DNA from: a virus
DNA: 25,394 nt
Strand: one strand, 5' to 3'
Virus record (IMG/VR): IMGVR_UViG_3300031787_000759
Span: 1 to 25,394 of that record
Shown here: piece by piece, positions 2,171-22,341 of the stretch
Position numbering within the stretch: the first letter of the stretch is position 1
How the letters are laid out: each line of letters opens with the position of its first letter
Position numbers and translations under genes: made by a program
Notes under the pieces: generated by a model
The model's database searches: none
The model's input: the letters and a program-made list of their open reading frames with translations, nothing else
Told to the model about the DNA's origin: nothing

Positions 2171-2499
2171 GCTGCCCATACCCCTCTCGCGTCTTCTGCT
2201 TCTATCTTGTCCACCACAGCGGTCGCCTTATAAAAGTTTGCTTTGGCGATTGCCCTTTTGACGATTGCACGGGCGTAAATATAAACGTCCTCTTCGTCGC
2301 CTTCAGGTGCAAGGTAAGCGTCAACGTCATGTAACGCTTGCAACATATCCTTATAGTCCTGCTCCATCGCCAAGATTGCCGTTAGGTTCTCAACGCTGTC
2401 CTCGTATAGCTGGCCGTCTATGCCTACCGCGTTGCTCATCAGCACCTCGTCGCGGTTCACCAGTAGCTCACGCACTGTTCTAAAAATATCGTCTCTCAT
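2167..2499 (-). CDS. Helical acidic protein, unknown function
   Basis: A 110-residue protein beginning MRDDIFRTVRELLVNRDEVL. It looks all helical, with an acidic loop (APEGDEEDVYIYARAIVKRA) and an Ala/Lys/Glu C-terminal helix. No enzyme motif or family is recognised. The ribosome site GAGGAGAAAGACGC lies in the end of the upstream gene and the start overlaps that gene's stop, so translation is coupled. Confidence 0.78.
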   Translation of the reverse strand: MRDDIFRTVRELLVNRDEVLMSNAVGIDGQLYEDSVENLTAILAMEQDYKDMLQALHDVDAYLAPEGDEEDVYIYARAIVKRAIAKANFYKATAVVDKIEAEDARGVWAA

Positions 2500-2642
2500 G
2501 CGTCTTTCTCCTCGTCGCTAATAAAAGCTTCCCATAGGTCGCGGTCTACCTCAATCCAGATAGCATCTGGAAACTCCTGCATCACGTTGCTGCTCTCCAG
2601 CAGGTCAAGTGCGCGCATCGCTTGCGTTTGAATATTCATCAT
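2496..2642 (-). CDS. Small acidic protein, unknown function
   Basis: A 48-residue protein starting MMNIQTQAMRALDLLESSNV. The second half, EFPDAIWIEVDRDLWEAF, is acidic and aromatic. The double ATG (2642, 2639) leaves one residue of doubt; AAGGGAACGC fits the first. It is joined by ATGA overlaps at both ends. No family is recognised. Confidence 0.65.
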   Translation of the reverse strand: MMNIQTQAMRALDLLESSNVMQEFPDAIWIEVDRDLWEAFISDEEKDA

Positions 2643-2821
2643 GCGTTCCCTTCATATGCCGTGTAAGGCAGTAACTTATTGCGCTGCTCCACCAGAAACT
2701 CGCGTAGCGTTTCAAACTCCGCAGGTTCGCTAATTACTATGTCGTCCACTTCGCCGCTGTCGATTAGGTCGCACAGGTCAAAATAGATTTCTTGCAACGT
2801 TGTTCTCTCTTTGTTTGTCAT
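2639..2821 (-). CDS. Small acidic helical protein, unknown function
   Basis: A 60-residue protein starting MTNKERTTLQEIYFDLCDLI. The open frame extends 21 bases further upstream, but AAGGAGGAAGACG places the start at 2821. The middle DSGEVDDIVISEPAEFETLR is acidic and likely forms helix-turn-helix-like packing with the flanking helices. No family is recognised. The gap of 11 bases to the upstream gene is the largest in this part of the run. Confidence 0.75.
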   Translation of the reverse strand: MTNKERTTLQEIYFDLCDLIDSGEVDDIVISEPAEFETLREFLVEQRNKLLPYTAYEGNA

Positions 2822-2832
2822 CGTCTTCCTCC

Positions 2833-3144
2833 TTAACAACATTCACATTCAGCTATCGCCGCACCATTGCGGCACAATTCTTCGGGATACGGGCCTTCTG
2901 GTTTGTATTCGTCCCGCATATGGTCAGCCAATTCCGCCCAGTTTACGGAAGCCAAGAAGCCCATCACAACGTCAGCCACAAAACCCGTTAGCTCCGTGTT
3001 GTCCTCTAAGTAATTCCATACCCAATCCCGATAGTCGTCAGCCTCCAATTCGCTGGCGCTATGCTTGTCGAAACCATCGTTAAACCAAAGGCCAACCATC
3101 CAAGTCTCGTAGTTTGTCCAGCCATGATAAGTGTTATCGGTCAT
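2833..3144 (-). CDS. NGW/GWTNYETW-motif phage protein, paralogue of 3388-3651
   Basis: A 103-residue acidic protein starting MTDNTYHGWTNYETWMVGLW. The N-terminal block [N/H]GWxNxxTWxVxLWF, then YRDxVxxY, then VNWAELADH, matches the 87-residue protein encoded at 3388-3651 almost position for position. The block is typical of a phage family of unknown function that I recall as DUF7249; I could not check this. The C-terminus has three cysteines (LCRNGAAIAECECC), absent in the paralogue. The start at 3144 is supported by TAGGAGCAAACTA, which is also the last codons of the upstream gene. Confidence 0.8.
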   Translation of the reverse strand: MTDNTYHGWTNYETWMVGLWFNDGFDKHSASELEADDYRDWVWNYLEDNTELTGFVADVVMGFLASVNWAELADHMRDEYKPEGPYPEELCRNGAAIAECECC

Positions 3145-3395
3145 TAGTTTGCTCCTACCTTGATAGGTTCCCAGTCCGTGCCGTCATGTTCTAAGACGCT
3201 GTAAACGTCCTCGCGATGGTATGCTTGCACGTCATGTTCTGATAGGCGCAGCGCCGCTAGCGTCTGCTCGACCAGATAATTCCAAACGGCGTCCTCGTCG
3301 ATTGTCTCGCCGTTCAGCGTCCCGACAATTTCATAGTCGCAATCGTCCCCGCAACGCTGCCATGCGAAGGTTATATAATTAGGATATTTACGCAT
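3144..3395 (-). CDS. Small acidic protein, unknown function
   Basis: An 83-residue protein, MRKYPNYITFAWQRCGDDCD at the N-terminus, with an acidic helical centre (ETIDEDAVWNYLVEQTLAAL) and an aromatic tail. No family is recognised, although the VWNYLVEQ segment recalls VWNYLED in the 2833-3144 protein. It lies between the two paralogues. Its last codons (GGA GCA AAC TAA) form the ribosome site of the next gene, and it overlaps the previous gene by eight bases. Confidence 0.75.
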   Translation of the reverse strand: MRKYPNYITFAWQRCGDDCDYEIVGTLNGETIDEDAVWNYLVEQTLAALRLSEHDVQAYHREDVYSVLEHDGTDWEPIKVGAN

Positions 3396-5281: not shown

Positions 5282-6145
5282 TTAGGCGGCAATCGCCATT
5301 TCGTCCGCTTCCTCTTGGGCTGTCAGATATTCCGCCGCTTTCTTGGCTTGGCTTGATGCGGTAAAGATTGCGCGCTTGTCCGCTTTCAAAACCTTAAGCC
5401 ACGATGCGACATAGTCAGCGTGCTGCAACCCATCCAGCGCAATGCCTGTTGTGGCGCAAACGAAAGCCGAACCGATTTCAGCAACCAATTCTTCGAAAGC
5501 ATAGGCGTCATCACCAAAGCGCTTGCCGAACGTGCGAGCTAGGCGGGATTCGTGACCAGTCCAATGCACAAGCTCATGAGCTAGGGTTGAAGCATAGTGT
5601 GCAGGGGTTGTGAAAGCATCGGCGCTAGGCATCCCGATTGAATCCGACATAGGCGAAAAGAAAGCTTTGTCCCCGCCATGATTAAGGCGGACATTGTGTC
5701 GCGCTGCAATGTCATTGATAGGGCTTTCTCCAGCAATGGCAGGGGTGAACGTCTTAAGCTTGGCAATGTCCAAGCCCTCGCATTGGTCAAGATTAAAGAC
5801 AGTGTAGGGCTTGGCGAAAGGAACAACCTTCTCTTTGCCCGTCTCTTTATCTTCCATTTTAGGGAATGACCAAAACACAATGCGGGTTCCTTTCTCACCC
5901 TTGCGGACATTGCCGCCTAATTCTTGGGCTTGTTTATAGGTTAGCCAGCCCGTGCTAGTGTAAGAGGCGCAAGATAGCACCAGCCAGTTAATCCCGTTAT
6001 AGGCGCGACCCGTTACCGCATTGTGCGGCACTAGCGCCGTGCCGATGCCAGATTTCCAAGGGCGCAACCATGGAGCCGTGCCATTCTCTAATGCGGTGAC
6101 AATCTTGTCTGTAACTTCTTGATAGATATCGTTTGTGCTAGTCAT
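5282..6145 (-). CDS. ardC: ArdC-like antirestriction protein (ssDNA-binding domain plus zinc metalloprotease)
   Basis: A 287-residue protein of the usual ArdC length. The N-terminal domain (about 1-125) shows the family pattern IVTALENGTAPWLRPW, YNGINWLVL, GWLTYKQAQELGGNVRKGEK and PYTVFNLDQCEGL. The C-terminal domain has the zinc-protease motif H190-E-L-V-H194, with FEELVAEIG (218-226) supplying the likely third ligand. In studied plasmid and phage homologues ArdC binds single-stranded DNA and protects entering DNA from restriction. The start at 6145 fits CCGGAGGGTTTTATTT; the frame is open for 11 more codons upstream. It is the first gene after the promoter at 6201-6230. Confidence 0.92.
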   Translation of the reverse strand: MTSTNDIYQEVTDKIVTALENGTAPWLRPWKSGIGTALVPHNAVTGRAYNGINWLVLSCASYTSTGWLTYKQAQELGGNVRKGEKGTRIVFWSFPKMEDKETGKEKVVPFAKPYTVFNLDQCEGLDIAKLKTFTPAIAGESPINDIAARHNVRLNHGGDKAFFSPMSDSIGMPSADAFTTPAHYASTLAHELVHWTGHESRLARTFGKRFGDDAYAFEELVAEIGSAFVCATTGIALDGLQHADYVASWLKVLKADKRAIFTASSQAKKAAEYLTAQEEADEMAIAA

Positions 6146-6175
6146 AAATAAAACCCTCCGGTTTGAATTGTGGAA

Positions 6176-6192
6176 CAAGGCAACCCGCCTTG
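6176..6192 (-). other. Leader hairpin of the ardC transcript
   Basis: CAAGGC (6176-6181) and GCCTTG (6187-6192) with a five-base loop lie about eight bases after the -10 box and upstream of the ardC ribosome site. Placement matches the leader hairpin at 912-929. Confidence 0.5.
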
Positions 6193-11585: not shown

Positions 11586-11776
11586 GGAATGATGTCCTAA
11601 AACACATCGCTGATAAAATCCAAGAAGAGATCACGGTCATGAGCGACGACCTCGCTCGTGGCGGTGCCAAGGATCATGGCGATTACAAATATGCCTGCGG
11701 GATCATCCGTGGGCTGATGATGGCAACCAGCGTCCTTGCGGATACGGCACAACGACTGGAGGACGACGATGACTGA
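11582..11776 (+). CDS. Small helical protein after portal, unknown function
   Basis: A 64-residue protein starting MRNDVLKHIADKIQEEITVM with an acidic end (QRLEDDDD). It contains GDYKYACGIIRGLMMATSVL, which appears helical. The start overlaps the portal stop (ATGA) and AGAGGAAATTGA lies before it. Small proteins at this place in similar phages are of unknown role. Its end overlaps the next start by eight bases. Confidence 0.8.
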   Translation: MRNDVLKHIADKIQEEITVMSDDLARGGAKDHGDYKYACGIIRGLMMATSVLADTAQRLEDDDD

Positions 11777-12179
11777 TCTCGTTGACCTGACTGGCCGTCC
11801 CATCCCTAAGGTGGGTGCAGCCCCTGAGCTTGCCTTTGAAGACCGCGCTAAGCAGCTTCCTGAGCCTTCTGGGTATCGCATCCTGTGCGCTATCCCTGAG
11901 ATCGAGAAGACCACCGAGGGCGGCATCATCAAAGCCGAAATCACCATCCACCACGAAGAACTGCTCGCCACAGTGCTCTATGCCGCAAAGCTCGGCCCAG
12001 ACTGCTATGCTGACGAGAAACGCTTCCCAAGCGGCCCTTGGTGCAAGGAAGGTGACTTCATTCTCGTGCGTCCGCATGCGGGCACGCGTATCGTAATTCA
12101 TGGCCGTCAATTCCGTATTATCAATGATGATGCGGTTGAAGGCGTCGTGGAAGACCCTCGCGGGATTTCTCGCGGGTAA
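11769..12179 (+). CDS. GroES-like co-chaperonin
   Basis: A 136-residue protein with the Cpn10 layout: first barrel strand GYRILCAIP (about 35-43), a mobile loop with EGGIIKAE (50-57) where GroES has a Gly-Gly-Ile motif, then ATVLYAAKLGPDCY, a KEGDFILVRPHAGTRIVIHG strand pair and the closing FRIINDDAVEGVVED. Phage co-chaperonins such as T4 gp31 replace GroES so that GroEL can fold the capsid protein; position between portal and scaffold fits that. About 30 extra N-terminal residues precede the barrel. The start at 11769 is fixed by GGAGGACGACG; an upstream in-frame ATG at 11736 lacks a site. Confidence 0.85.
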   Translation: MTDLVDLTGRPIPKVGAAPELAFEDRAKQLPEPSGYRILCAIPEIEKTTEGGIIKAEITIHHEELLATVLYAAKLGPDCYADEKRFPSGPWCKEGDFILVRPHAGTRIVIHGRQFRIINDDAVEGVVEDPRGISRG

Positions 12180-12209: not shown

Positions 12210-13160
12210 ATGGCAGATGAGCCAAATGATGACGATTTCCAGTGGGAAGTCGAAGATGATACCCCTGTTTCTGAAGACAACAGCCCTGATATCGAGGTTG
12301 AAGACGATACTCCCGAGGCAGACCGTGGGCGTGAGCCTATGCCGAAGGAAGTTGTTGACGAGCTTGAGGCTGACGAACTCGAAGAATATTCTGATAAGGT
12401 AAAAACTCGCCTGAAGCAGATGAAGAAAGTCTGGCACGACGAGCGCCGTGAAAAAGAACGGTTGATGCGTGAGCAGACAGAAGCTCTCAACGCAGCGCAG
12501 CGCCTCCTTGAAGAAAACCGCCGGTTGAAATCTACCCTTTCTGAGGGCGAGCAAACACTGGTCGGAAGCTTCAAGCAGACCGCTGAGTACGAGCTTGCAC
12601 AGGCCAAACGTGCGTATAAAGATGCTTACGAAGCAGGTGATACTGACCGGGTACTTGAGGCCCAAGAACAGTTGAACGCTGCCCAATATAAGCTTCAGCA
12701 GCTTGCTGGGTATAGACCTACTTTACAAGAAGAAGAATACGCGGTACAACCAACGCAACCGCAGGTGCAAATCCCGCAGCCAGACCAGAAAACAGTTGCG
12801 TGGCAAGAGCGCAATATGTGGTGGGGTACTGACCCGGAGATGACTGCATCGGCACTCGGGCTTCATCAGAAGCTTGAGAAAGAACGTGGTCCACAGTTTG
12901 TGGGCACCGACGAATATTGGGGCGCTATCGACACAACGATGCGTCGTCGTTTTCCGGAATATTTCGGAGACGAGTCCAAAGCGACCGAAGGCACTGCGAG
13001 AGCTTCACGGCAATCGAAGGCTGCCAATGTAGTCGCACCAGCTTCCCGAAGTACGTCCTCCAAAAAGATAGTACTTAAACAGTCCCAACTTAGTATCGCT
13101 AAGCGACTGGGCTTAACCCCCGAGCAATATGCTCGTGAATTTGCGAAGATGGAGCGTTAA
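12210..13160 (+). CDS. Scaffolding protein
   Basis: A 316-residue protein with the usual scaffold composition: an acidic disordered N-terminus (about 1-60), a long Glu/Lys/Arg coiled coil (about 60-170, with KTRLKQMKKVWHDERREKE), a Pro/Gln linker (QPTQPQVQIPQPDQ), and a basic C-terminal helical tail ending LSIAKRLGLTPEQYAREFAK, the sort of helix-turn-helix that binds capsid protein in other phages. It lies upstream of the capsid gene. No prohead protease is seen nearby, so removal without proteolysis is possible. AAAGGAGAAGTAAT supports the start. Confidence 0.85.
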   Translation: MADEPNDDDFQWEVEDDTPVSEDNSPDIEVEDDTPEADRGREPMPKEVVDELEADELEEYSDKVKTRLKQMKKVWHDERREKERLMREQTEALNAAQRLLEENRRLKSTLSEGEQTLVGSFKQTAEYELAQAKRAYKDAYEAGDTDRVLEAQEQLNAAQYKLQQLAGYRPTLQEEEYAVQPTQPQVQIPQPDQKTVAWQERNMWWGTDPEMTASALGLHQKLEKERGPQFVGTDEYWGAIDTTMRRRFPEYFGDESKATEGTARASRQSKAANVVAPASRSTSSKKIVLKQSQLSIAKRLGLTPEQYAREFAKMER

Positions 13161-14243: not shown

Positions 14244-15155
14244 ATGGCAATTTCACGCGCACAACTCCTTAAGGAGCTATTGCCCGGTCTGAACGCTTTG
14301 TTTGGTCTGGAATACGCACGCTACGGCGAAGAGCACAAAGAGATTTTCGAAACCGAAAGCTCTGAGCGTTCGTTCGAAGAAGAAACGAAGCTGTCGGGTT
14401 TCTCCGCTGCTCCGGTCAAGAACGAAGGTTCTGCTATCGCCTATGACAACGCGCAGGAAGTCTTCACTGCTCGCTACAACCACGAAACGATTGCCCTCGG
14501 GTTCTCGCTCACGGAAGAAGCGATTGAAGATAACTTGTACGACTCTTTGTCGTCGCGTTACACAAAGGCTTTGGCTCGGGCCATGGCGTACACCAAGCAG
14601 ACTAAGGCTGCTGCAATCCTGAACAATGGCTTCGACACCGACTATGCCGGTGGCGACGGTCAACCACTGTTCTCGGCTTCGCACCCGCTCGTCTCTGGTG
14701 GCACCAACTCGAACATCCCAACCACTGCTGCTGATTTGAATGAAACGTCGCTTGAAGCGGCTGTAATTCAGATTGCTGCGTGGACGGATGAACGTGGCCT
14801 GCTCATCGCGGCTAAACCGCGTAAGCTGGTAGTTCCGCCAAGCCTGATGTTCGTTGCAACACGCCTCCTCGAAACCGAACTTCGCGTTTCGACGGCTGAC
14901 AACGATATCAACGCGCTTAAGTCGAATGGCTCGATCCCAGAAGGTTACACTGTTAACCACTTCTTGACCGACACGGATGCGTGGTTCTTGACCACCGACG
15001 TGCCAAATGGCCTGAAGCACTTCGTTCGTACGCCTATGCAAAACAGCATGGACGGTGACTTTGATACGGGCAACGTCCGTTACAAGGCTCGCGAGCGTTA
15101 CAGCTTCGGCTGGTCCGATCCACTCGGCATGTACGGTTCCGAAGGCGCTGCCTAA
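14244..15155 (+). CDS. Major capsid protein (HK97 fold, Mu gpT-like)
   Basis: A 303-residue protein. The segments FSAAPVKNEGSAIAYDNAQE, YTKALARAMAYTKQTKAAAI, LFSASHPLVSGGTNSN, KPRKLVVPPSLMFVATRLLE and the end GWSDPLGMYGSEGAA are typical of the Mu-gpT-like major head subunit group, which has the HK97 fold. It forms the shell around the scaffold. There is no long N-terminal delta domain, in line with a separate scaffold gene. AAGGAGACTGACTA precedes the ATG. An intrinsic terminator directly after the stop shows that capsid message is a transcript end. Confidence 0.92.
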   Translation: MAISRAQLLKELLPGLNALFGLEYARYGEEHKEIFETESSERSFEEETKLSGFSAAPVKNEGSAIAYDNAQEVFTARYNHETIALGFSLTEEAIEDNLYDSLSSRYTKALARAMAYTKQTKAAAILNNGFDTDYAGGDGQPLFSASHPLVSGGTNSNIPTTAADLNETSLEAAVIQIAAWTDERGLLIAAKPRKLVVPPSLMFVATRLLETELRVSTADNDINALKSNGSIPEGYTVNHFLTDTDAWFLTTDVPNGLKHFVRTPMQNSMDGDFDTGNVRYKARERYSFGWSDPLGMYGSEGAA

Positions 15156-16046: not shown

Positions 16047-16784
16047 ATGCAAGCACAAAAAGGTTACGATTTAGCCGGTAAGAGCATCTTCATTGCTCTG
16101 CCCGCCTATGACTTCAAGGTCTCCTTGAAGCTGGCGGTTTCGTTGGCTCGGTTCACTCAGGTGGCTGGCCAGCACGGCATTACGATACAGATTGGCAGCA
16201 TCTGCGGATGTTCTGTCGTCTCTCGCGCTCGTAACCTGCTTGTTCAAGACATGCTGGAATCCACCTGCGACTATTTACTCTTCATCGACAGCGACATCAA
16301 CTTTGAGCCGGAACACATCTTCCGTCTTATGGCTTGGGGTAGCGATCCGAAGAAGGGTATCGTCGCAGGTGTTCCACGCACACGTAGTGAAAACAAGGTC
16401 TACATCGCTGACCTTGACTATGACGAGAACCACGAACTGACCATGAACGGTATGGGTCTGGTACGTGGTAAGCGCGTTGCGACCGCTTTCATGCTGGTTC
16501 GCCGCGAAGTATTCGAGCAGATGGCTGCTGCTAACCCTGATTGGGTCTACAAGGATCAGCGCTCAGACCGCATGATCCCCTGCCTCTTTGATTTCAAACT
16601 CACCGAAGAGGGCTACATGGGCGAGGACTTCTTGTTCTGCGACCGTGCCCGTGAAATCGGTTTTGAGGTTTGGATCGACCCCAGCATTCAACTTGGACAC
16701 ATGGGCGTACAGGAATATGAAGGCTGCTTCGGCACCGACGTTCTTTATCCGATGCTCGCCCCAACACAGAAGGAAGCAGCATAA
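16047..16784 (+). CDS. GT-A fold glycosyltransferase
   Basis: A 245-residue protein. The pattern SIFIALPAYDFKVSLKLAVS, VVSRARNLLVQDML, then CDYLLFIDSDINFEP with D81-S-D83 as the metal/nucleotide-sugar DXD motif, and GEDFLFCDRAREIGFEVWID near the end fit family 2-like phage and viral glycosyltransferases. It would move a sugar from a nucleotide donor to an unknown acceptor in the cytoplasm. It has no membrane segment. Its place between virion genes suggests sugar attachment to a virion protein or to host surface sugars. The stop is shared with the next ATG (TAATG). Ribosome site weak. Confidence 0.85.
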   Translation: MQAQKGYDLAGKSIFIALPAYDFKVSLKLAVSLARFTQVAGQHGITIQIGSICGCSVVSRARNLLVQDMLESTCDYLLFIDSDINFEPEHIFRLMAWGSDPKKGIVAGVPRTRSENKVYIADLDYDENHELTMNGMGLVRGKRVATAFMLVRREVFEQMAAANPDWVYKDQRSDRMIPCLFDFKLTEEGYMGEDFLFCDRAREIGFEVWIDPSIQLGHMGVQEYEGCFGTDVLYPMLAPTQKEAA

Positions 16785-17236
16785 TGGGTATCATGAAAAA
16801 ACTTGGGAAAAGCGGGATGTTCGGTCTTGCTGGGCTTGCGGCAACCAATAAGGGTGCGGTTAACAAAATCGCTCGGAATGGCGGTTTGGGCCTTATAGGT
16901 ATGGCGCTAGCTAAGAAGAAGGCAGCACAAGGTGCTGGCGGTATGCGCGGTCGTCCAGCGGTAGAAGATATTATGATGGCCGAACAAGTCCCCGCAGGTA
17001 GGGCTGCTCCTATTATGGCCGGAGATGTTGACGCCATGATGGGCCGTAGCGCTCAGAATGATATGTCTGGCATGAAAAAGGGCGGTAAGGTTAGCGCCGT
17101 TCAAGCCGTGCATAAGCACGAGCGCGCCAAACACAAAGGCCAGCCGCTGACCAAGATGGCTAAGGGTGGCTCGACTGCCTCCAAGCGTGGCGATGGCTGC
17201 GCTACCAAGGGTAAGACGAAAGGGCGGTTCGTGTAA
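16784..17236 (+). CDS. Basic Gly/Lys-rich protein with KGG motifs and DGCAxKGKTKG tail
   Basis: A 150-residue very basic protein. The N-terminus (MFGLAGLAATNKGAVNKIAR, GGLGLIGMALAKKKAAQG) is amphipathic and Gly/Ala-rich. The middle has MSGMKKGGKV and the end reads KMAKGGSTASKRGDGCATKG followed by KTKGRFV. The same motifs recur in the genes at 17236, 18141, 19388 and 22074. No enzyme motif is present. The composition suits nucleic-acid contact or membrane insertion, possibly as an internal virion protein. One-base overlap with the glycosyltransferase and the next gene (TAATG at both ends) implies coupled synthesis. Confidence 0.8.
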   Translation: MGIMKKLGKSGMFGLAGLAATNKGAVNKIARNGGLGLIGMALAKKKAAQGAGGMRGRPAVEDIMMAEQVPAGRAAPIMAGDVDAMMGRSAQNDMSGMKKGGKVSAVQAVHKHERAKHKGQPLTKMAKGGSTASKRGDGCATKGKTKGRFV

Positions 17237-17640
17237 TGCCAGCAGCAAAAGGCACCAAACAACTTGGTTTTGATACTAAGCGTAAACCTCTAACGAAGAA
17301 GCAGTATGACGCTCTCTCGCTGAAAGAGCGTTTGCGGATGTATGATGCTGCGGAAAAGAAAGAAGGCAGCGCCACAGGCCAAAGGTCTTCTGCTGGTTCA
17401 CTACCTACGGATGTAGAAGAGCGCCTAACTAATAAGCCATATAGGTATACAGAGCGAGGACGTTTGGGTATTGGCCGCACCGAAAATGTATCGGAAAGCG
17501 ATATTCGTAAGGGGCAAGCTCGTGCTGCTGAAATAAAACGCACTGCTAAGAGTGGGGCACCGCTTACACCTAAAATGGCTAAAGGTGGTAAGATTGACGG
17601 CTGCGCTATACGCGGCAAAACTCGTGGGAAGTTCGTCTGA
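17236..17640 (+). CDS. Basic protein with AKGG and DGCAxRGKTRG tail
   Basis: A 134-residue Lys/Arg-rich protein. It includes a helical segment (KKQYDALSLKERLRMYDAAE) and a disordered basic centre. The tail KMAKGGKIDGCAIRGKTRGK ends in FV, nearly the same as the tail of the preceding gene, though the rest of the two proteins does not align. This points to a shared short functional tail rather than whole-gene duplication. The start shares a base with the previous stop, and the stop (TGATGG) with the next start. Function unknown. Confidence 0.8.
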   Translation: MPAAKGTKQLGFDTKRKPLTKKQYDALSLKERLRMYDAAEKKEGSATGQRSSAGSLPTDVEERLTNKPYRYTERGRLGIGRTENVSESDIRKGQARAAEIKRTAKSGAPLTPKMAKGGKIDGCAIRGKTRGKFV

Positions 17641-17894
17641 TGGCTAAGACACCCGCATGGCAACGCAAAGAAGGCAAAGCGAAGTCTGGCGGGCTGAACG
17701 CCAAGGGTCGTGCGTCCTATAACAAAGCCAATCCCGGTAAGCCGGGGTTGAAGGCTCCGCAACCTGAAGGCGGTCCGCGTAAGAAGTCATTCTGTGCCCG
17801 GATGTCAGGGATGAAGAAGAAACTTACAAGTAAGAAGACCGCGAATGATCCTAATAGCCGCATCAACAAGTCACTCCGGGCTTGGAAGTGCTGA
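17640..17894 (+). CDS. Basic conserved phage protein (DUF6321-like)
   Basis: An 84-residue basic protein: MAKTPAWQRKEGKAKSGGLN at the start, then AKGRASYNKANPGKPGLKAP, KKSFCARMSGMKKKL and the end RINKSLRAWKC. I recognise this order (AWQRKEGK, GGLNAKGR, SFCARMSGMK, DPNSRINKSLRxWxC) from many tailed phages and recall it as DUF6321; this is memory, not a search. The Arg/Lys load suggests nucleic-acid binding. Two Cys (SFC, WKC) and RMSG are conserved features of the family as I know it. It is linked by TGATG to the gene before. Confidence 0.85.
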   Translation: MAKTPAWQRKEGKAKSGGLNAKGRASYNKANPGKPGLKAPQPEGGPRKKSFCARMSGMKKKLTSKKTANDPNSRINKSLRAWKC

Positions 17895-17895
17895 C

Positions 17896-18138
17896 ATGGA
17901 GATGATGCTTTGGAACATTGCATTGAGCGCAGCGGTGGCTGTCATGGGCTTCTTGTTTAAGGGCAAGATCGACGAGTTGGACCGTCTTGGCATCCTACTC
18001 AACAAGACCCGTGAAGAAGTCGCCCGCGAGCATGTAACTCGTTCGGAGATGAACACACTGGTCGATAAGCTAGGAGACCGGTTTGATAAGGCGTTTGAAC
18101 GTCTTGAGGCCAAGGTCGATGAGATGAGGAAGGTATAA
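17896..18138 (+). CDS. Membrane-anchored coiled-coil protein (XhlA/spanin-like architecture)
   Basis: An 80-residue protein. Residues 4-20 (MLWNIALSAAVAVMGFLF) form one membrane helix, followed by a coiled coil (RLGILLNKTREEVAREHVTR, LVDKLGDRFDKAFERLEAKV). GGAAGTGCTGAC supports 17896; the frame is open upstream to 17845 inside the previous gene. One membrane anchor plus a coiled coil is seen in XhlA-like lysis-accessory proteins, inner-membrane spanins and some phage internal proteins. No endolysin or holin is visible near it, so a lysis role is only one option. Confidence 0.75.
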   Translation: MEMMLWNIALSAAVAVMGFLFKGKIDELDRLGILLNKTREEVAREHVTRSEMNTLVDKLGDRFDKAFERLEAKVDEMRKV

Positions 18139-18140
18139 CG

Positions 18141-19388
18141 ATGGCACGTACAATGAAAAAGTTCTCAGCCGGTGGCGCACAAGGTCGTTACGACCGTCGC
18201 ATGGCGGACATCGAAAAAGACTTTAAAAAGGCTATGGCCCGTAAGACGGGTAAGGATGCCGAAGTAGCTGAAGCGAAGCGTCAGCAGCGTATCGCTGACG
18301 CCAAAGATGACCTTGCCAAGCGCACTGGTGCTGACCGCACTGCTACACGCGCTGCTGAGAGCGCAGCCGAGCGCAACCTCACGCTAACCCGTAAGTTTGG
18401 TGCGCCGAAGGCGGTAACCGCCGAAGCACCAGTATCTAAAGTCGTGGACAGCATGCCTGCGCTAACTGCGCCTAAGATGGATAGCTCCATCGGCAAGCCG
18501 CAGAGCTTTGCTGCTGCGTTTAAGGACGCTCGTTCGCGCCTAGGCGCAGGTAAGACTTTCACCTTTAACGGTAAGAGCTTCACCACAAACATCGCAGGCG
18601 AAGGTCGTAAGCCTACGTCGGGCGGTCCGAGCACAAATAAAGGTGCAACTACGCCGCCTGCGAGCACAAATAAAGGCGCAGGTACACCCGATGTAGACAA
18701 GCGGGCGGAGTTTCGTAGGCAAACAGCCGCAAAACAGGCGGAGCTTCGTCGGGAAGCCAATCGTGCGGCTATGCGCCGTAACACAGCCGGTAAAACGCAA
18801 CTCGTTGGTCCTGCTGATAGTCAAGAAGCTCGTATACGTACAGCTCAAAAGACCATGGCGGCGGTGAAACCCGTTGACGACAAGGCGGCTAAATTGTCGC
18901 GCCTTAAGGTTGCGGCAGAAGCTCCCGGTGCGACTCAGTTTGCTAAGGACAGATATAAATATGCCGTATCGTCTGGTATGTACGCCAAGGGTGGCAAAGT
19001 TAAAAAGAAGGAAACTACTATGAAATACGCTAAGGGTGGCTCTACATCTCCACGACCAGTACCAAAAAAGCCAATGCCGAAAGAACCAATCACTGGTGGT
19101 GCAAACACCGTGCCGTTGACCCCTGAGCGTAAAGAGTTCCTCAAAGAACTGGCGAAGCGCAACGCTAAGCCGGGTATGGCTAAAGGTGGCAAAGCACCTA
19201 AGTTCGGCGCTGCAATGGTCAAGAAGTCTGCCGACACCAAGGGCCGTGCAATGGTCAAGAAGGCCGGTGGCGGCAAATGCTACGCTTCGGGTGGTCTCGT
19301 TGCTGGACACAAGTCGGCTGATGGTATTGCTAAGAAGGGCAAGACCAAGGGCAAGATGCCAACGATGAAAAAAGGCGGCTATTGCTAA
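18141..19388 (+). CDS. Large basic low-complexity protein with multiple KGG motifs
   Basis: A 415-residue protein, disordered and rich in Ala, Lys, Arg and Gly. The first 90 residues form a basic coiled coil (YDRRMADIEKDFKKAMARKT). A Ser/Thr/Pro linker holds a repeated STNKGA. The last 140 residues carry YAKGGKVKKKE, YAKGGSTSPRP, MAKGGKAPKFG, CYASGGLVAGH and the tail DGIAKKGKTKGKMPTMKKGGYC. Two 33-base-period repeats (18628 and 19211 areas) show local duplication. It is plausibly an internal virion protein or a DNA-condensing scaffold. No enzyme domain is seen. AGGAAGGTATAACG precedes the ATG. Confidence 0.8.
   Translation: MARTMKKFSAGGAQGRYDRRMADIEKDFKKAMARKTGKDAEVAEAKRQQRIADAKDDLAKRTGADRTATRAAESAAERNLTLTRKFGAPKAVTAEAPVSKVVDSMPALTAPKMDSSIGKPQSFAAAFKDARSRLGAGKTFTFNGKSFTTNIAGEGRKPTSGGPSTNKGATTPPASTNKGAGTPDVDKRAEFRRQTAAKQAELRREANRAAMRRNTAGKTQLVGPADSQEARIRTAQKTMAAVKPVDDKAAKLSRLKVAAEAPGATQFAKDRYKYAVSSGMYAKGGKVKKKETTMKYAKGGSTSPRPVPKKPMPKEPITGGANTVPLTPERKEFLKELAKRNAKPGMAKGGKAPKFGAAMVKKSADTKGRAMVKKAGGGKCYASGGLVAGHKSADGIAKKGKTKGKMPTMKKGGYC
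18628..18676 (+). repeat. Tandem 33-base repeat inside the 18141 gene
   Basis: CGAGCACAAATAAAGG occurs at 18628-18643 and 18661-18676, a period of 33 bases or 11 codons, coding STNKGA twice. A second in-frame duplication, GCAATGGTCAAGAAG, also has a period of 33 bases near 19213 and 19246. Confidence 0.7.
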
Positions 19389-19678
19389 TGCGCGCTTGTC
19401 GGGGCATGGGGGCTATGAAGGCGTCCAAGATGCCGGGTAAGAAGACGATCAAACGGAAGGACAATCCTGATGATGTCTCGATGTACGCAAAAGGAGGGAA
19501 AGCGAAGCTTGACATCTCCAAAGCGATCAAAAAACCCGGCGCACTCCGTGCGCAGCTTGGCACTCCTGAGGGTAAGAAAATCCCAGCAGGAAAACTTGCT
19601 AAAGCCGCTAAGGCTCCCGGCAAGCTAGGCCAACGCGCACGGTTCGCGCAGATGCTGAAAGGCTTTAAGAAGAAGTAA
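19388..19678 (+). CDS. Basic KGG-motif protein with CRGMGAMKAS start
   Basis: A 96-residue very basic protein starting MRACRGMGAMKASKMPGKKT. RGMGA near a terminus and YAKGGKAK are recurrent short motifs in this gene cluster and in related phage proteins as I remember them. The rest is Lys/Ala helices (KLAKAAKAPGKLGQRARFAQ). The start is fixed by TAATG overlap with the previous stop; an internal ATG at 19409 or 19418 could also be used. The stop overlaps the next gene in the same way. Probably nucleic-acid-binding; role unknown. Confidence 0.75.
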   Translation: MRACRGMGAMKASKMPGKKTIKRKDNPDDVSMYAKGGKAKLDISKAIKKPGALRAQLGTPEGKKIPAGKLAKAAKAPGKLGQRARFAQMLKGFKKK

Positions 19679-20073
19679 TGGCACGGTCGGACGAACCCAA
19701 ATGGAAGCGCATCGTTGCCAGCGTAAAGGCTGGCACGAAGGGTGGAAACGCAGGTCAATGGTCCGCCCGTAAAGCCCAGCTTGCGACCCAGCGGTATAAG
19801 AAATCAGGCGGCAGCTACAGCGGCCCGAAGACGGAAGCGCAGAAATCCTTGTCCAAATGGACCAAAGAGGACTGGGGAACCAAGTCGGGCAAGCCATCCA
19901 CGCAGGGGGCGAAAGCAACCGGCGAACGCTATCTACCGAAGAAAGCACGTCAGGCGCTGACATCTTCTGAATATGCTGCTACAACCAAGGCGAAACGTGC
20001 AGGCATTAAAGCGGGCAAGCAGTTCGTTAAGCAGCCGAAGGCCATAGCGAAGAAGACAAAGGGGTTCAGGTAA
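19678..20073 (+). CDS. DUF5872-like basic protein
   Basis: A 131-residue protein, about a quarter Lys/Arg. The block WKRIVASVKAGTKGGNAGQW, then SARKAQLATQRYKKSGGSYS, KSLSKWTKEDWGTKSGKPST and RYLPKKARQALTSSEYAATT is the pattern I recall as DUF5872, a family known from phages and also large DNA viruses of eukaryotes. The function is not established; the KEDWGTKSG and RYLP segments are its most constant parts. It overlaps both neighbours by one base (TAATG). Confidence 0.85.
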   Translation: MARSDEPKWKRIVASVKAGTKGGNAGQWSARKAQLATQRYKKSGGSYSGPKTEAQKSLSKWTKEDWGTKSGKPSTQGAKATGERYLPKKARQALTSSEYAATTKAKRAGIKAGKQFVKQPKAIAKKTKGFR

Positions 20074-20912
20074 TGTCTAAGGGCGGTTCACCAATGGGAA
20101 GCGGTGGCTTCGGTGGTCAGCAGGGCGGCTTCGGCGGCGGTTTCGGTGGACCGCAAGGTGGTTTCGGCGGTGGCTTTGGCGGTCAACAGGGCGGCTTCGG
20201 CGGTGGCTTCGGTATGCCCCAGCAACAGCAGGGTTACGGCGGCGGCGGCGGTGGATACCGGCCTTCACGCCAGCGCTTTAACCAGATGCCTCAACAGCAG
20301 ATGGGTTATGGCGGCGGTTTCGGTGGCCAGATGCAAGGGTTCGGTATGCCCCAGCAACAGCAGGGTTTTGGTAACACCTTTGCACGTACGATGCCGCCCC
20401 AGCAGGGTTTTGGTGGTGGCTATGGTATGCCCCAGCGGCCTATGTACGGAGGTGACACTCCAATGGCTCCGCAACAGCGTGACCCAATGCGTCCAATGGT
20501 AAGTCAAATGGCACCGGAACAGACCCAACAATCAGCAACACCTGCACCTAGCACCGATATGAGGGCTATGATGGACCCTTTCCGGCAGCAAGCAAACCAG
20601 ATGATGGCGGCTCAGAACGCTGCTCTCGCGTCTAGGGGTATGCCCACTTCAGATGCCTTAAATGTTGCTCAGCCCCCAAAGCAACAACCGCAGGCACAGA
20701 CGAACCAACCTTCTGCGACCCCCAGCCAGTTATATGATGCGCTTCGGGGTATGGACCCTCGTGCGCTCCAACCAAATGTAAATCGCTTACCAACCCAACC
20801 ACAAACGCCACCCAACCCGTATGCACAACAAGTACGTCAAGAAGACCCACGTATGCAGGCCATGCGGATGATGCAGCAGATGCGCTTTGGCGGTGGAGGA
20901 TACAACTTCTAA
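20073..20912 (+). CDS. Gly/Phe/Gln-rich prion-like low-complexity protein
   Basis: A 279-residue protein beginning MSKGGSPMGSGG, so it also opens with a KGG motif. Residues about 10-65 repeat GGFGGQQ / GGFGGG, followed by MPQQQQGYGGGGGG, a few Arg, MPQQQMGYGGGFGGQ and similar units up to about 130. The rest is Pro/Gln/Met-rich and disordered, ending MMQQMRFGGGGYNF. Such FG/YG/Q-rich sequences in cellular proteins form phase-separated or amyloid-like assemblies. No globular domain is seen. Its place between the cationic cluster and the neck genes suggests a virion or assembly role. Start and stop both overlap their neighbours (TAATG). Confidence 0.8.
   Translation: MSKGGSPMGSGGFGGQQGGFGGGFGGPQGGFGGGFGGQQGGFGGGFGMPQQQQGYGGGGGGYRPSRQRFNQMPQQQMGYGGGFGGQMQGFGMPQQQQGFGNTFARTMPPQQGFGGGYGMPQRPMYGGDTPMAPQQRDPMRPMVSQMAPEQTQQSATPAPSTDMRAMMDPFRQQANQMMAAQNAALASRGMPTSDALNVAQPPKQQPQAQTNQPSATPSQLYDALRGMDPRALQPNVNRLPTQPQTPPNPYAQQVRQEDPRMQAMRMMQQMRFGGGGYNF
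20095..20450 (+). repeat. GGC/TTC tandem repeat DNA within the low-complexity gene
   Basis: Imperfect tandem units of about 27-36 bases with the core GGCGGCTTCGGCGG code the FGG repeats between about 20095 and 20215. A 28-base identical direct repeat starting TTCGGTATGCCCCAGCAACA lies at 20208-20235 and 20340-20367. Such repeats can gain or lose copies by slippage. Confidence 0.7.
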
Positions 20913-21622
20913 TGACCACATCGGGCACTACAGGATTTAACCTTAACCTTAACGAACTCGTTGAGGAAGCGTTCGAGCGTTGCGGTGCCGAGCTTCGGAC
21001 GGGTTATGACCTGCGTACGGCGCGGCGTAGCCTCAACCTGCTTACCATTGAGTGGGCAAACCGGGGTATTAACCTGTGGACCATTGAGCAAGGCTCGATC
21101 CCCATGGTGCAGGGTCAAATTGTCTACGACCTCCCTGTTGATACCATCGACTTGCTTGACCATGTGATCCGCACGCAGACTGGCCAAGGCCAGACGGATA
21201 TCAACATTACCCGTATCAGCATCGACACATACTCGACGATCCCGAACAAGAACGCTCAAGGGCGTCCCATCCAAGTGTGGATCAACCGTCAGTCAGGCGC
21301 GACCGAACCCAGCACCGGGGTGGCGTATCCGAATATCAACGTATGGCCTGCCCCAGAGCAGTCCAACTATTACACCTTCGTCTACTGGCGGCTTCGCCGT
21401 ATTCAGGACGCTGGCAACGGTATCACGACGCAGGACATCCCGTTCCGCTTCTTGCCGTGTATGGTAGCAGGTCTAGCGTACCATCTGTCGAAGAAAATCC
21501 CCGGCGCGCTTGAGCGCAGCCAGATGCTCAAGATGGAATACGAAGAGTTGTGGCAGCAAGCTGCTGACGAGGACCGCGAGAAGGCGTCGTTGCGTATCGC
21601 ACCGCGTCAGATGTTCTATTAA
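20912..21622 (+). CDS. Head-to-tail adaptor/tail tubular-like protein
   Basis: A 236-residue protein. The N-terminus LNELVEEAFERCGAELRTGY is followed by DLRTARRSLNLLTIEWANRG, and the C-terminus has FLPCMVAGLAYHLSKKIPGA then LKMEYEELWQQAADEDREKA. Helical bundle ends with a beta middle (YDLPVDTIDLLDHVIRTQTG) are the layout of connector proteins such as T7 gp11 and P22 gp4, which join portal to tail. The similarity is in layout and order of elements, not in a diagnostic motif. It overlaps the previous stop (TAATG). Confidence 0.75.
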   Translation: MTTSGTTGFNLNLNELVEEAFERCGAELRTGYDLRTARRSLNLLTIEWANRGINLWTIEQGSIPMVQGQIVYDLPVDTIDLLDHVIRTQTGQGQTDINITRISIDTYSTIPNKNAQGRPIQVWINRQSGATEPSTGVAYPNINVWPAPEQSNYYTFVYWRLRRIQDAGNGITTQDIPFRFLPCMVAGLAYHLSKKIPGALERSQMLKMEYEELWQQAADEDREKASLRIAPRQMFY

Positions 21623-21631
21623 GGAGATAGC

Positions 21632-22072
21632 ATGCCAAATAGGTTTGCCTCCGGTAAATGGGCTATTTCGCAGTGTGACCGCTGCGGATTCCGCTATAAG
21701 CTGAAGCAGCTTCGGCGTCTCGTCATCAAGACGAAGAACGTCAATATCCTCGTATGCCCGTCCTGCTGGGAACCAGATCAGCCACAGCTTCAGTTGGGGA
21801 TGTACCCAGTTGATGATCCTCAGGCGCTGCGTAACCCGCGTCCGGATACGACATATTATCAAGGCGGCTTGACTGGTCTCCAAGAAGAAACACAGGGCGA
21901 AGTGCCCAGCGAGAACGTGCTGGCGTTCGGTACACCGTCAGGTGGTAGCCGTGTAATCCAGTGGGGGTGGAACCCTGTTGGCCTGAATGATCCTTTGGGT
22001 TTGTCCGGCCTTGTAAATGTGCTAATAGCACATGGTGACGTAGGCACCGTAACTGTTCAGACGGAGAATTAA
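21632..22072 (+). CDS. Zinc-ribbon virion-module protein
   Basis: A 146-residue protein with a four-cysteine zinc ribbon at the N-terminus: C15-D-R-C18 and C42-P-S-C45, strands RYKLKQLRRL and NILV between. The rest is a beta-rich domain (FGTPSGGSRVIQWGWNPVGL, VLIAHGDVGTVTVQTEN). Its position between two adaptor-like genes suggests a neck or tail component, where zinc-holding knobs are known in other phages. AAGGAGATAGC precedes the start. The function is inferred from position only. Confidence 0.8.
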   Translation: MPNRFASGKWAISQCDRCGFRYKLKQLRRLVIKTKNVNILVCPSCWEPDQPQLQLGMYPVDDPQALRNPRPDTTYYQGGLTGLQEETQGEVPSENVLAFGTPSGGSRVIQWGWNPVGLNDPLGLSGLVNVLIAHGDVGTVTVQTEN

Positions 22073-22073
22073 A

Positions 22074-22199
22074 ATGGCTAAAGGTGGCAAGACGAATAAG
22101 CAGATGTTGAATATGGGCCGTAATCTGGCGAAGATTGCGAACCAGAAGAGCGGCAGCAAGCCGAAGAAGGACATGGGAAAGGTCAATAAAAATGGCTGA
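22074..22199 (+). CDS. Tiny basic AKGG peptide
   Basis: A 41-residue peptide, MAKGGKTNKQMLNMGRNLAK then IANQKSGSKPKKDMGKVNKN and G. It starts with the same MAKGG that is internal or near-terminal in the larger proteins of the cluster, and the DNA ATGGCTAAAGGTGGCAA is identical to an internal stretch of the 18141 gene at 19176-19192. CGGAGAATTAAA supplies the ribosome site, and its end overlaps the next start by eight bases. About 30 percent Lys/Arg with almost no acid. Likely the smallest member of the motif family. Confidence 0.7.
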   Translation: MAKGGKTNKQMLNMGRNLAKIANQKSGSKPKKDMGKVNKNG

Positions 22200-22341
22200 T
22201 TATAAACAACCTAAGGTCTACACACAGGCCGACCTCGGCAACAACGGCTATCCTAACAAGATTGCCAATACCCAGACGCAGAAGACCCGTGGTACGGGCG
22301 CGGCGACCAAGGGTACTGGGCACAGCAAGAAGATGGGCTAA
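22192..22341 (+). CDS. Small basic protein with RGTGAATKG tail
   Basis: A 49-residue protein, MADYKQPKVYTQADLGNNGY then PNKIANTQTQKTRGTGAATK and GTGHSKKMG. The tail RGxGAATKG is a short motif I recall in other aquatic phage virion-module proteins and resembles CRGMGA in the 19388 gene. AAAGGTCAATAAAA precedes the ATG at 22192; a longer frame from 22135 lacks a ribosome site and crosses the previous gene. The stop shares a base with the next start. Confidence 0.72.
   Translation: MADYKQPKVYTQADLGNNGYPNKIANTQTQKTRGTGAATKGTGHSKKMG

Follow-up and report, generated by a model that had tools for sequence, protein, structure and literature searches.

Why do several unrelated basic proteins, encoded directly behind the capsid gene of a virus, share the same short peptides? 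The question is raised by IMG/VR record IMGVR_UViG_3300031787_000759, of which a stretch of 25,394 bases, here called the window, has head and tail genes in a podovirus-like module on its plus strand. A first-pass annotation had noticed two motifs, [MY][ASK]KGG and DG[CI]A..GKT[KR]G, in a cluster of basic late proteins and had proposed that they act as a common tag or as a maturation or cleavage site. The motifs of the window together belong to a single C-terminal tag, [MY]xxGG-x(0-8)-SASxR-A-DG[IC]AxRGKT[KR]G[RK]MV directly followed by the stop codon (tag A). This tag is real, C-terminal and modular, is selected at the protein level, sits on unrelated bodies in the late block after the gene for the major capsid protein (MCP) and has a lineage-specific sequence. 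As to its role, we put the chance at about one in two (0.5) that it serves as a docking signal by which rapidly changing cargo proteins enter the head.

A C-terminal tag shared by unrelated late proteins

The motifs lie in six open reading frames (ORFs), named below by their first position, with lengths in amino acids (aa):

16784..17236, plus strand: basic ORF of 150 aa, charge +20, with MKKGG (17072), MAKGG (17156) and a complete C-terminal tag, MAKGGSTASKRGDGCATKGKTKGRFV, then stop
17192..17233, plus strand: tag core DGCATKGKTKGRFV of ORF 16784, reaching the stop
17236..17640, plus strand: basic ORF of 134 aa with MAKGG (17575) and tag core DGCAIRGKTRGKFV, then stop (17596-17637)
18141..19388, plus strand: basic ORF of 415 aa, charge +57, with YAKGG (18981, 19026) and MAKGG (19176)
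19320-19352, plus strand: tag core DGIAKKGKTKG of ORF 18141, then KMPTMKKGGYC and stop
19388..19678, plus strand: 96-aa protein of the family AIKKPGALRxxLG..KxGQRARFA, with YAKGG (19484)
20073..20912, plus strand: Gly/Gln-rich low-complexity ORF of 279 aa, MSKGG start, without the DGxA tag
22074..22199, plus strand: 41-aa ORF MAKGGKTNKQMLNMGRNLAKIANQK, MAKGG start, without the DGxA tag

There are exactly ten copies of [MY][ASK]KGG, two in ORF 16784, one in 17236, four in 18141 and one each in 19388, 20073 and 22074, and none elsewhere in the window, neither in other genes nor in any reading frame. Three copies of DG[CI]A..GKT[KR]G are present (17192, 17596, 19320), with none elsewhere in the window; in two of these exactly 3 aa remain before the stop, and the third, in ORF 18141, continues into an 11-aa extension with MKKGGYC at its end. 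The bodies of the three DGxA-tagged proteins do not align to each other, as had been noted before. When the residues were permuted within each protein 5000 times, [MY][ASK]KGG appeared on average 0.07 times and at most twice, and DG[CI]A..GKT[KR]G never. Chance in Gly/Lys-rich sequence is ruled out by these shuffles and by the constant distance to the stop in at least 120 contigs. The two motifs are not independent, since in the alignment the DGxA tag has [MY]xKGG as its upstream half; [MY]xKGG also occurs alone, at N-termini and inside proteins. The six proteins are a mixed set: ORFs 20073 and 22074 lack the DGxA tag and the 19388 family is usually untagged, while the untagged DUF6321 protein at 17640 does belong to the group.

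How widespread is the tag? DGxA..GKT[KR]G was turned into a degenerate DNA pattern, unconstrained in position, and scanning IMG/VR with it returned at least 120 contigs with at least 207 motif-bearing ORFs. Among the matches listed, the tag ends exactly three residues before the stop in 134 of 207 ORFs; in the remainder mostly 10–30 residues lead to the stop, with an extension such as ..MxxGGKAC. Conservation reaches beyond the searched pattern, to SAS[KR]RA upstream and [RK][MIF][VC] downstream. As the pattern itself fixes eight residues, residues were counted again in loci selected only through their capsid gene. All of the 87 tags in these loci share the strand of the MCP gene; G, G and T are invariant in them (87/87), K is found in 86, D in 82 and A in 76. 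Of these tags, eight end in GKTRA with nothing after it. With the tag removed, 189 tagged proteins among the matches listed fall into 92 body clusters at E<1e-5, a single-linkage count that is approximate in both directions because the bodies are short and basic. The only recognisable tagged bodies are DUF6321, DUF6496 and one N-terminal module; searches of PHROG and Pfam with the body of ORF 17236 gave no family, and AlphaFold2 predicted ORF 16784 (8 homologues) without a confident fold (mean pLDDT 51). Homologues of the window's three tagged ORFs occur in 4, 0 and 1 of 31 tag-bearing loci, whereas untagged neighbours are far more constant in the same loci (DUF6321 in 28, 19678 in 28, the adaptor 20912 in 30). 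The tag is constant while the bodies turn over. The earlier proposal of a common tag on unrelated basic proteins is thereby borne out, the tagged proteins lying in the head and late operon and being kept together across hundreds of contigs. A bacterial origin was rejected, since a stricter pattern found only four stretches in 85,000 bacterial and archaeal species genomes, all in records of the metagenome-assembled type, one of them a phage-like 5.9-kb contig with four tags.

At which level is the tag selected? The near-identical codons reported earlier hold for the four MAKGG copies of the window (ATG GCT AAA/G GGT GGC/T) and do not hold for the 98 copies in related loci, in which codons vary, so the motif is not a DNA element. 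The invariant tag residues are written with every synonymous codon, in about the usage seen elsewhere, and the tag is under protein-level selection. A recombination site was likewise rejected on the codon variation among copies. At the variable sites, tags on unrelated bodies agree more within a genome than between genomes (0.625 vs 0.43; 0 of 1000 permutations), while codon identity is barely raised (0.49 vs 0.43), so that recent DNA copying is not the main cause of the agreement; shared recognition or lineage-specific drift remain.

Head genes, sister lineages and gain of the tag

The genes around the tagged ORFs are the following:

7246, plus strand: TerL (phrog_38)
9102, plus strand: portal (phrog_1216)
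11736-12179, plus strand: GroES-like co-chaperonin in the head module, below the Pfam cut-off
12210-13160, plus strand: scaffold candidate, named from its position (phrog_28737, unknown function)
14244..15155, plus strand: MCP, HK97/Mu gpT type, Phage_capsid_4; its clade predicts presence of the tag
16047, plus strand: glycosyltransferase, between MCP and tagged block
17640..17894, plus strand: DUF6321 protein (PF19846, 3.9e-19), here without tag, ending in LRAWKC
17896..18138, plus strand: untagged 80-aa neighbour with hydrophobic N-terminus and coiled-coil-like part (phrog_7885, 5.8e-5), with a counterpart in DSL-LC04
19678..20073, plus strand: basic conserved companion of 131 aa, KSGKPSTQG..GERYLP (phrog_14910, 5.8e-33)
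20912 and 22341, plus strand: adaptor and tail genes, the latter an SU10 adaptor
22192..22341, plus strand: 49-aa ORF ending in KTRGTGAATKGTGHSKKMG, then stop; carries the related C-terminal motif RGxG[AC]ATKG
5282-6178, minus strand: ArdC-like anti-restriction protein (ArdcN and zincin-like metallopeptidase)

By TerL and MCP the closest named phages are MinM2/Pag-Yong1/Pra-JY27, DSL-LC04, 023Pt_psg01 and the Pelagibacter phages HTVC023P/027P; the GroES-like annotation is present also in DSL-LC04, HTVC027P and MinM2. The phages that carry the tag form a large water-borne group, nearly all of it uncultured.

In a tag-independent sample, that is loci chosen by the capsid protein only, all strict tags (91/91) share the strand of the MCP gene and follow it at a distance of 1.5-4.4 kb downstream. 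With a relaxed pattern and in loci with at least 5 kb visible downstream, tags are present in 31 of 31 loci whose MCP is at least 85% identical to that of the window, in 5 of 22 at 75-85% and in 0 of 49 below 75%. Identity in the MCP predicts the tag with an area under the curve (AUC) of 0.98, followed by the scaffold candidate (0.96) and portal (0.95); weaker predictors are the adaptor 20912 (0.88), TerL (0.82) and gene g23317 (0.35). The link between tag and head genes fits a partner in the head, shared descent being a confounder. On long tag-bearing contigs TerL identity spans 46-86% and MCP identity 75-96%; within the same genomes TerL has apparently been exchanged far more than the MCP. 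The commonest companion of the tag is the 19388 family (31/32 tag-positive vs 20/70 tag-negative loci), for which a fold search with the predicted model gave no significant match, and ORF 22074 is likewise conserved in tag-positive genomes (23/32 vs 4/70).

The same body occurs tagged and untagged, and the tag is a modular addition. In at least six relatives the DUF6321 protein has the tag appended directly after LRAWNC, as LRAWNC-ADGGYVSSADGCATQGKTRGRFV and stop. The 19388 family is untagged except in one relative (L017). DUF6496 proteins end in an A-like tag in two loci (L103, L353) and have none in two others (L319, L347), and a body that by eye resembles DUF6496 ends in another tag, tag B, in L466. 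A body tagged in L015 and L043 ends in ..GQGRVIRSKKTRIC or ..RGQGAARKTKGCKIT in DSL-LC04 and relatives. Two loci, L113 and L143, have an upstream module joined to the front of the 22074 body at the AKGG junction. A 19388-family protein (L145:7792-8289) has a long insertion right behind YAKGG that resembles a module junction.

Tag B belongs to a sister clade and reads ARGSGAARxQxF[RT]KNG before the stop, in its fuller form [TV][IVM]ARGSGAARxQxF[RT]KNG. Its signature was spotted by reading untagged relatives and then followed with a pattern scan. Among the matches listed it lies exactly four residues from the stop in 119 of 120 cases (loci including L450-L528) and on 13 body clusters; where an identity is given, the MCP of these contigs is 73-81% identical to that of the window. 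Mutual exclusion of tags A and B is ruled out, as nine intermediate-clade loci carry tag B together with one A-like tag. A third motif, RGxG[AC]ATKG, stands 7-8 residues from the stop of a small tail-side protein, including the ORF at 22192-22341. In an untagged clade, L126 (DSL-LC04, 32700-32927) and 23 related loci encode a conserved small protein with the start MAGRGMG[AC]ATRGGGAV and usually an end of MGG..C-type residues.

What the tag could do

How might one peptide serve so many unrelated proteins? Late proteins whose genes closely follow the capsid gene, unrelated to one another, basic and for the most part disordered, would carry the tag at their ends, and one partner conserved within the lineage would read it, most likely in the prohead, where the inner face of the MCP, the scaffold or the portal are candidates. 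For any protein, gaining the tag would then be enough to bring it into the newly made head or onto its surface. The bodies would be quickly changing cargo, probably packaged alongside the DNA or passed on to the host, and the tag the constant part. A constant end peptide on variable, disordered, basic bodies, the place on the head side, the lineage-specific sequence and the gain and loss of the tag fit what would be predicted for a loading signal, comparable to the capsid-targeting sequence (CTS) of phage T4; recognition by a head protein, presence in the virion and the cargo role are what we infer from them. A more far-reaching version is tentative and rather doubtful: each lineage may fix its own C-terminal address (A or B), which its own prohead reads, and some 25 codons could then recruit unrelated genes as packaged, probably injected, quickly replaceable effectors.

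Cultured phages already carry the tag. Cyanophage MinM2 encodes a 308-aa protein (2274-3200) with the C-terminal end YAKGGAVKRERYASGGMIGRDGCAKRGRTKGRFI and stop, 0.6 kb after the annotated MCP coding region, and the same protein is found at 100% identity in Pag-Yong1 and Pra-JY27:

OQ594354 2274-3200: tagged protein WEV89192.1 of Pag-Yong1/MinM2, C-terminal peptide DGCAKRGRTKGRFI

A tblastn search of cultured phages with a 28-aa consensus tag, a short and low-complexity query, returned nothing; as the MinM2 protein was found by reading the genome, this null result is a false negative. The records OQ594354, OL906435 and PP438419 all have 65,014 bp, are identical across the 308-aa tagged gene and are assigned to three different cyanobacterial hosts; a bacterium growing in the same cultures may be the real host. 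A hint of virion residence, at the level of annotation, comes from the commonest tagged cluster (e.g., L003:805-1227). Its N-terminal 43-aa module, SKAQHN..FAKKVGVPQSVGKxF, is 81% identical to phiKZ PHIKZ165.1, opens proteins of RaK2 and GAP32 that are annotated as virion structural, and is also found in 121Q. Being common to podovirus-like contigs and jumbo phages, this module is a second mobile terminal module.

Several observations weigh against a head-loading signal. About one third of the listed tags are not strictly terminal, and the intermediate clade (MCP 73-81%) with tag B, sometimes together with an A-like tag, blurs the unified picture. The glycosyltransferase 16047, where present, predicts the tag with an AUC of 0.96 too, and the MCP link could reflect plain common descent, with all late genes of the clade co-varying somewhat. 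The link to jumbo phages consists of the 43-aa N-terminal module, which is absent from the window, and the RaK2 protein with this module was not found named in the main text of the RaK2 paper.

What else could the peptide be? The main rival, which we consider unlikely, is a tail that binds nucleic acid or phosphate on packaged DNA or RNA, the tagged proteins serving as condensation or internal factors with no protein partner. The end is rich in Lys, Arg and Gly, the tag has a net charge of about +5 and the tagged ORFs of the window reach +17, +20 and +57 with predicted disorder, all in line with such a tail. Its core GxAx[RK]GKT also matches the P-loop (Walker A) pattern GxxxxGKT, but only 6-9 aa follow, predicted without fold and leaving no space for a P-loop, and the threonine is replaced by serine in none of the 87 capsid-sampled copies, unlike in a generic P-loop. 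The invariant G, G and T, the near-invariant D and A, the constant stop distance and a different tag in the sister clade favor specific recognition. Many host modulators are small, basic, disordered proteins, and the bodies turn over as fast as takeover genes, as would be expected if the tag acted in the host cell as a signal for a host factor, in proteolytic stability or in the localisation of takeover proteins. This is improbable considering that all tags stand in the late head-side operon and that the tag tracks the identity of head genes above that of TerL or g23317.

The remaining explanations fare worse. Short homologies at recombination junctions could shuffle late genes without any function of their own: KHERAKHKGxPLTKxAKGG precedes the tag in ORF 16784 and the 22074 body in L113 and L143, and the L145 insertion starts straight after YAKGG. 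Synonymous codons differ widely between copies, however, also within one genome, so DNA homology among them is poor, and the constant stop distance and invariant residues require selection of the protein; we regard such junctions as very improbable. The maturation or cleavage site envisaged in the first-pass annotation has a precedent in T4 and SPN3US, whose prohead proteases cut head proteins at short motifs (PMC5694885). No gp21-like or other head protease family was found among the window's head genes, part of the genome lying beyond the window, and the motif stands mostly three or, in GKTRA ends, zero residues from the stop and not between domains, so that almost nothing would be removed; this proposal is disfavoured, with hardly any probability left, and cleavage before the tag would make it a removable tag and hence still a targeting signal. 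Least probable of all, the tag could exist for translation, its 3' codons being a Shine-Dalgarno sequence for an overlapping next gene. The next start does lie within a few nucleotides of the stop in 108 of 130 terminal tags, and the last Gly codon is GGA or GGG in 72% of the tags with a close next gene, compared with 23% of other terminal and 7% of non-terminal tags, indicating that the 3' end of the tag doubles as ribosome-binding site. As the cause of the tag it is largely refuted, because it accounts for this one codon and not for the peptide, and the 68 non-terminal tags, like those terminal tags that overlap no next gene, encode unchanged residues through different codons.

If the tag targets the head, packaged and perhaps injected proteins could be listed from sequence in an uncultured and very large group of phages, where nearly all of these genes lack annotation, and a peptide would be at hand for loading chosen proteins into phage heads. 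Phage heads would then use interchangeable C-terminal addresses as encapsulins do, with sister lineages swapping the address and keeping the cargo. Even without targeting, a peptide at the end of about 90 unrelated clusters demands an explanation, and with Pag-Yong1/MinM2/Pra-JY27 a cultured tag-bearing phage exists.

Relation to known systems

Has such a tag been described? Pfam and PHROGs contain no family for it, a PDB profile search with the tag gave no match up to E=10, and the openly searchable literature, queried with the motif letters (subscription papers and preprints lying outside this scope), gave no relevant paper; in the families, structures and papers searched the tag is undescribed. 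DUF6321 (PF19846) and DUF6496 (PF20106) supply two of the tagged bodies and are themselves families without the tag; DUF6321 is found in 542 phage records, mostly from cyanophages.

Encapsulins load unrelated cargo through a C-terminal peptide that binds to the inside of a shell with HK97 fold. They have no portal, terminase or DNA, and their cargo is a few enzymes. The tag resembles their cargo-loading peptide in being C-terminal on diverse bodies in a phage with an HK97-type capsid protein. It differs in that portal, TerL and phage MCP are present and that some 90 body clusters carry it, and binding to the shell is putative here.

The ejection proteins gp7, gp16 and gp20 of P22-like podoviruses are late virion proteins injected with the DNA (PMC8402733); in the literature consulted no common tag is described for them, and the tagged ORFs gave no Pfam or PHROG match to them. 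The T4 CTS, found on the internal proteins IPI-III and Alt, is sufficient to load even foreign proteins into the prohead (PMC5694885); the long propeptides of inner-head proteins in SPN3US and phiKZ are a further comparison. Like the CTS, the tag is a short terminal peptide on several unrelated proteins of the head region. Unlike the signals of T4 and SPN3US, which are N-terminal and are removed by the prohead protease, it is C-terminal and has no protease found nearby and no sequence resemblance to them. By position and protease the tag is therefore not a member of the T4 family; if it is indeed a docking signal for the head, it would work like a capsid-targeting signal.

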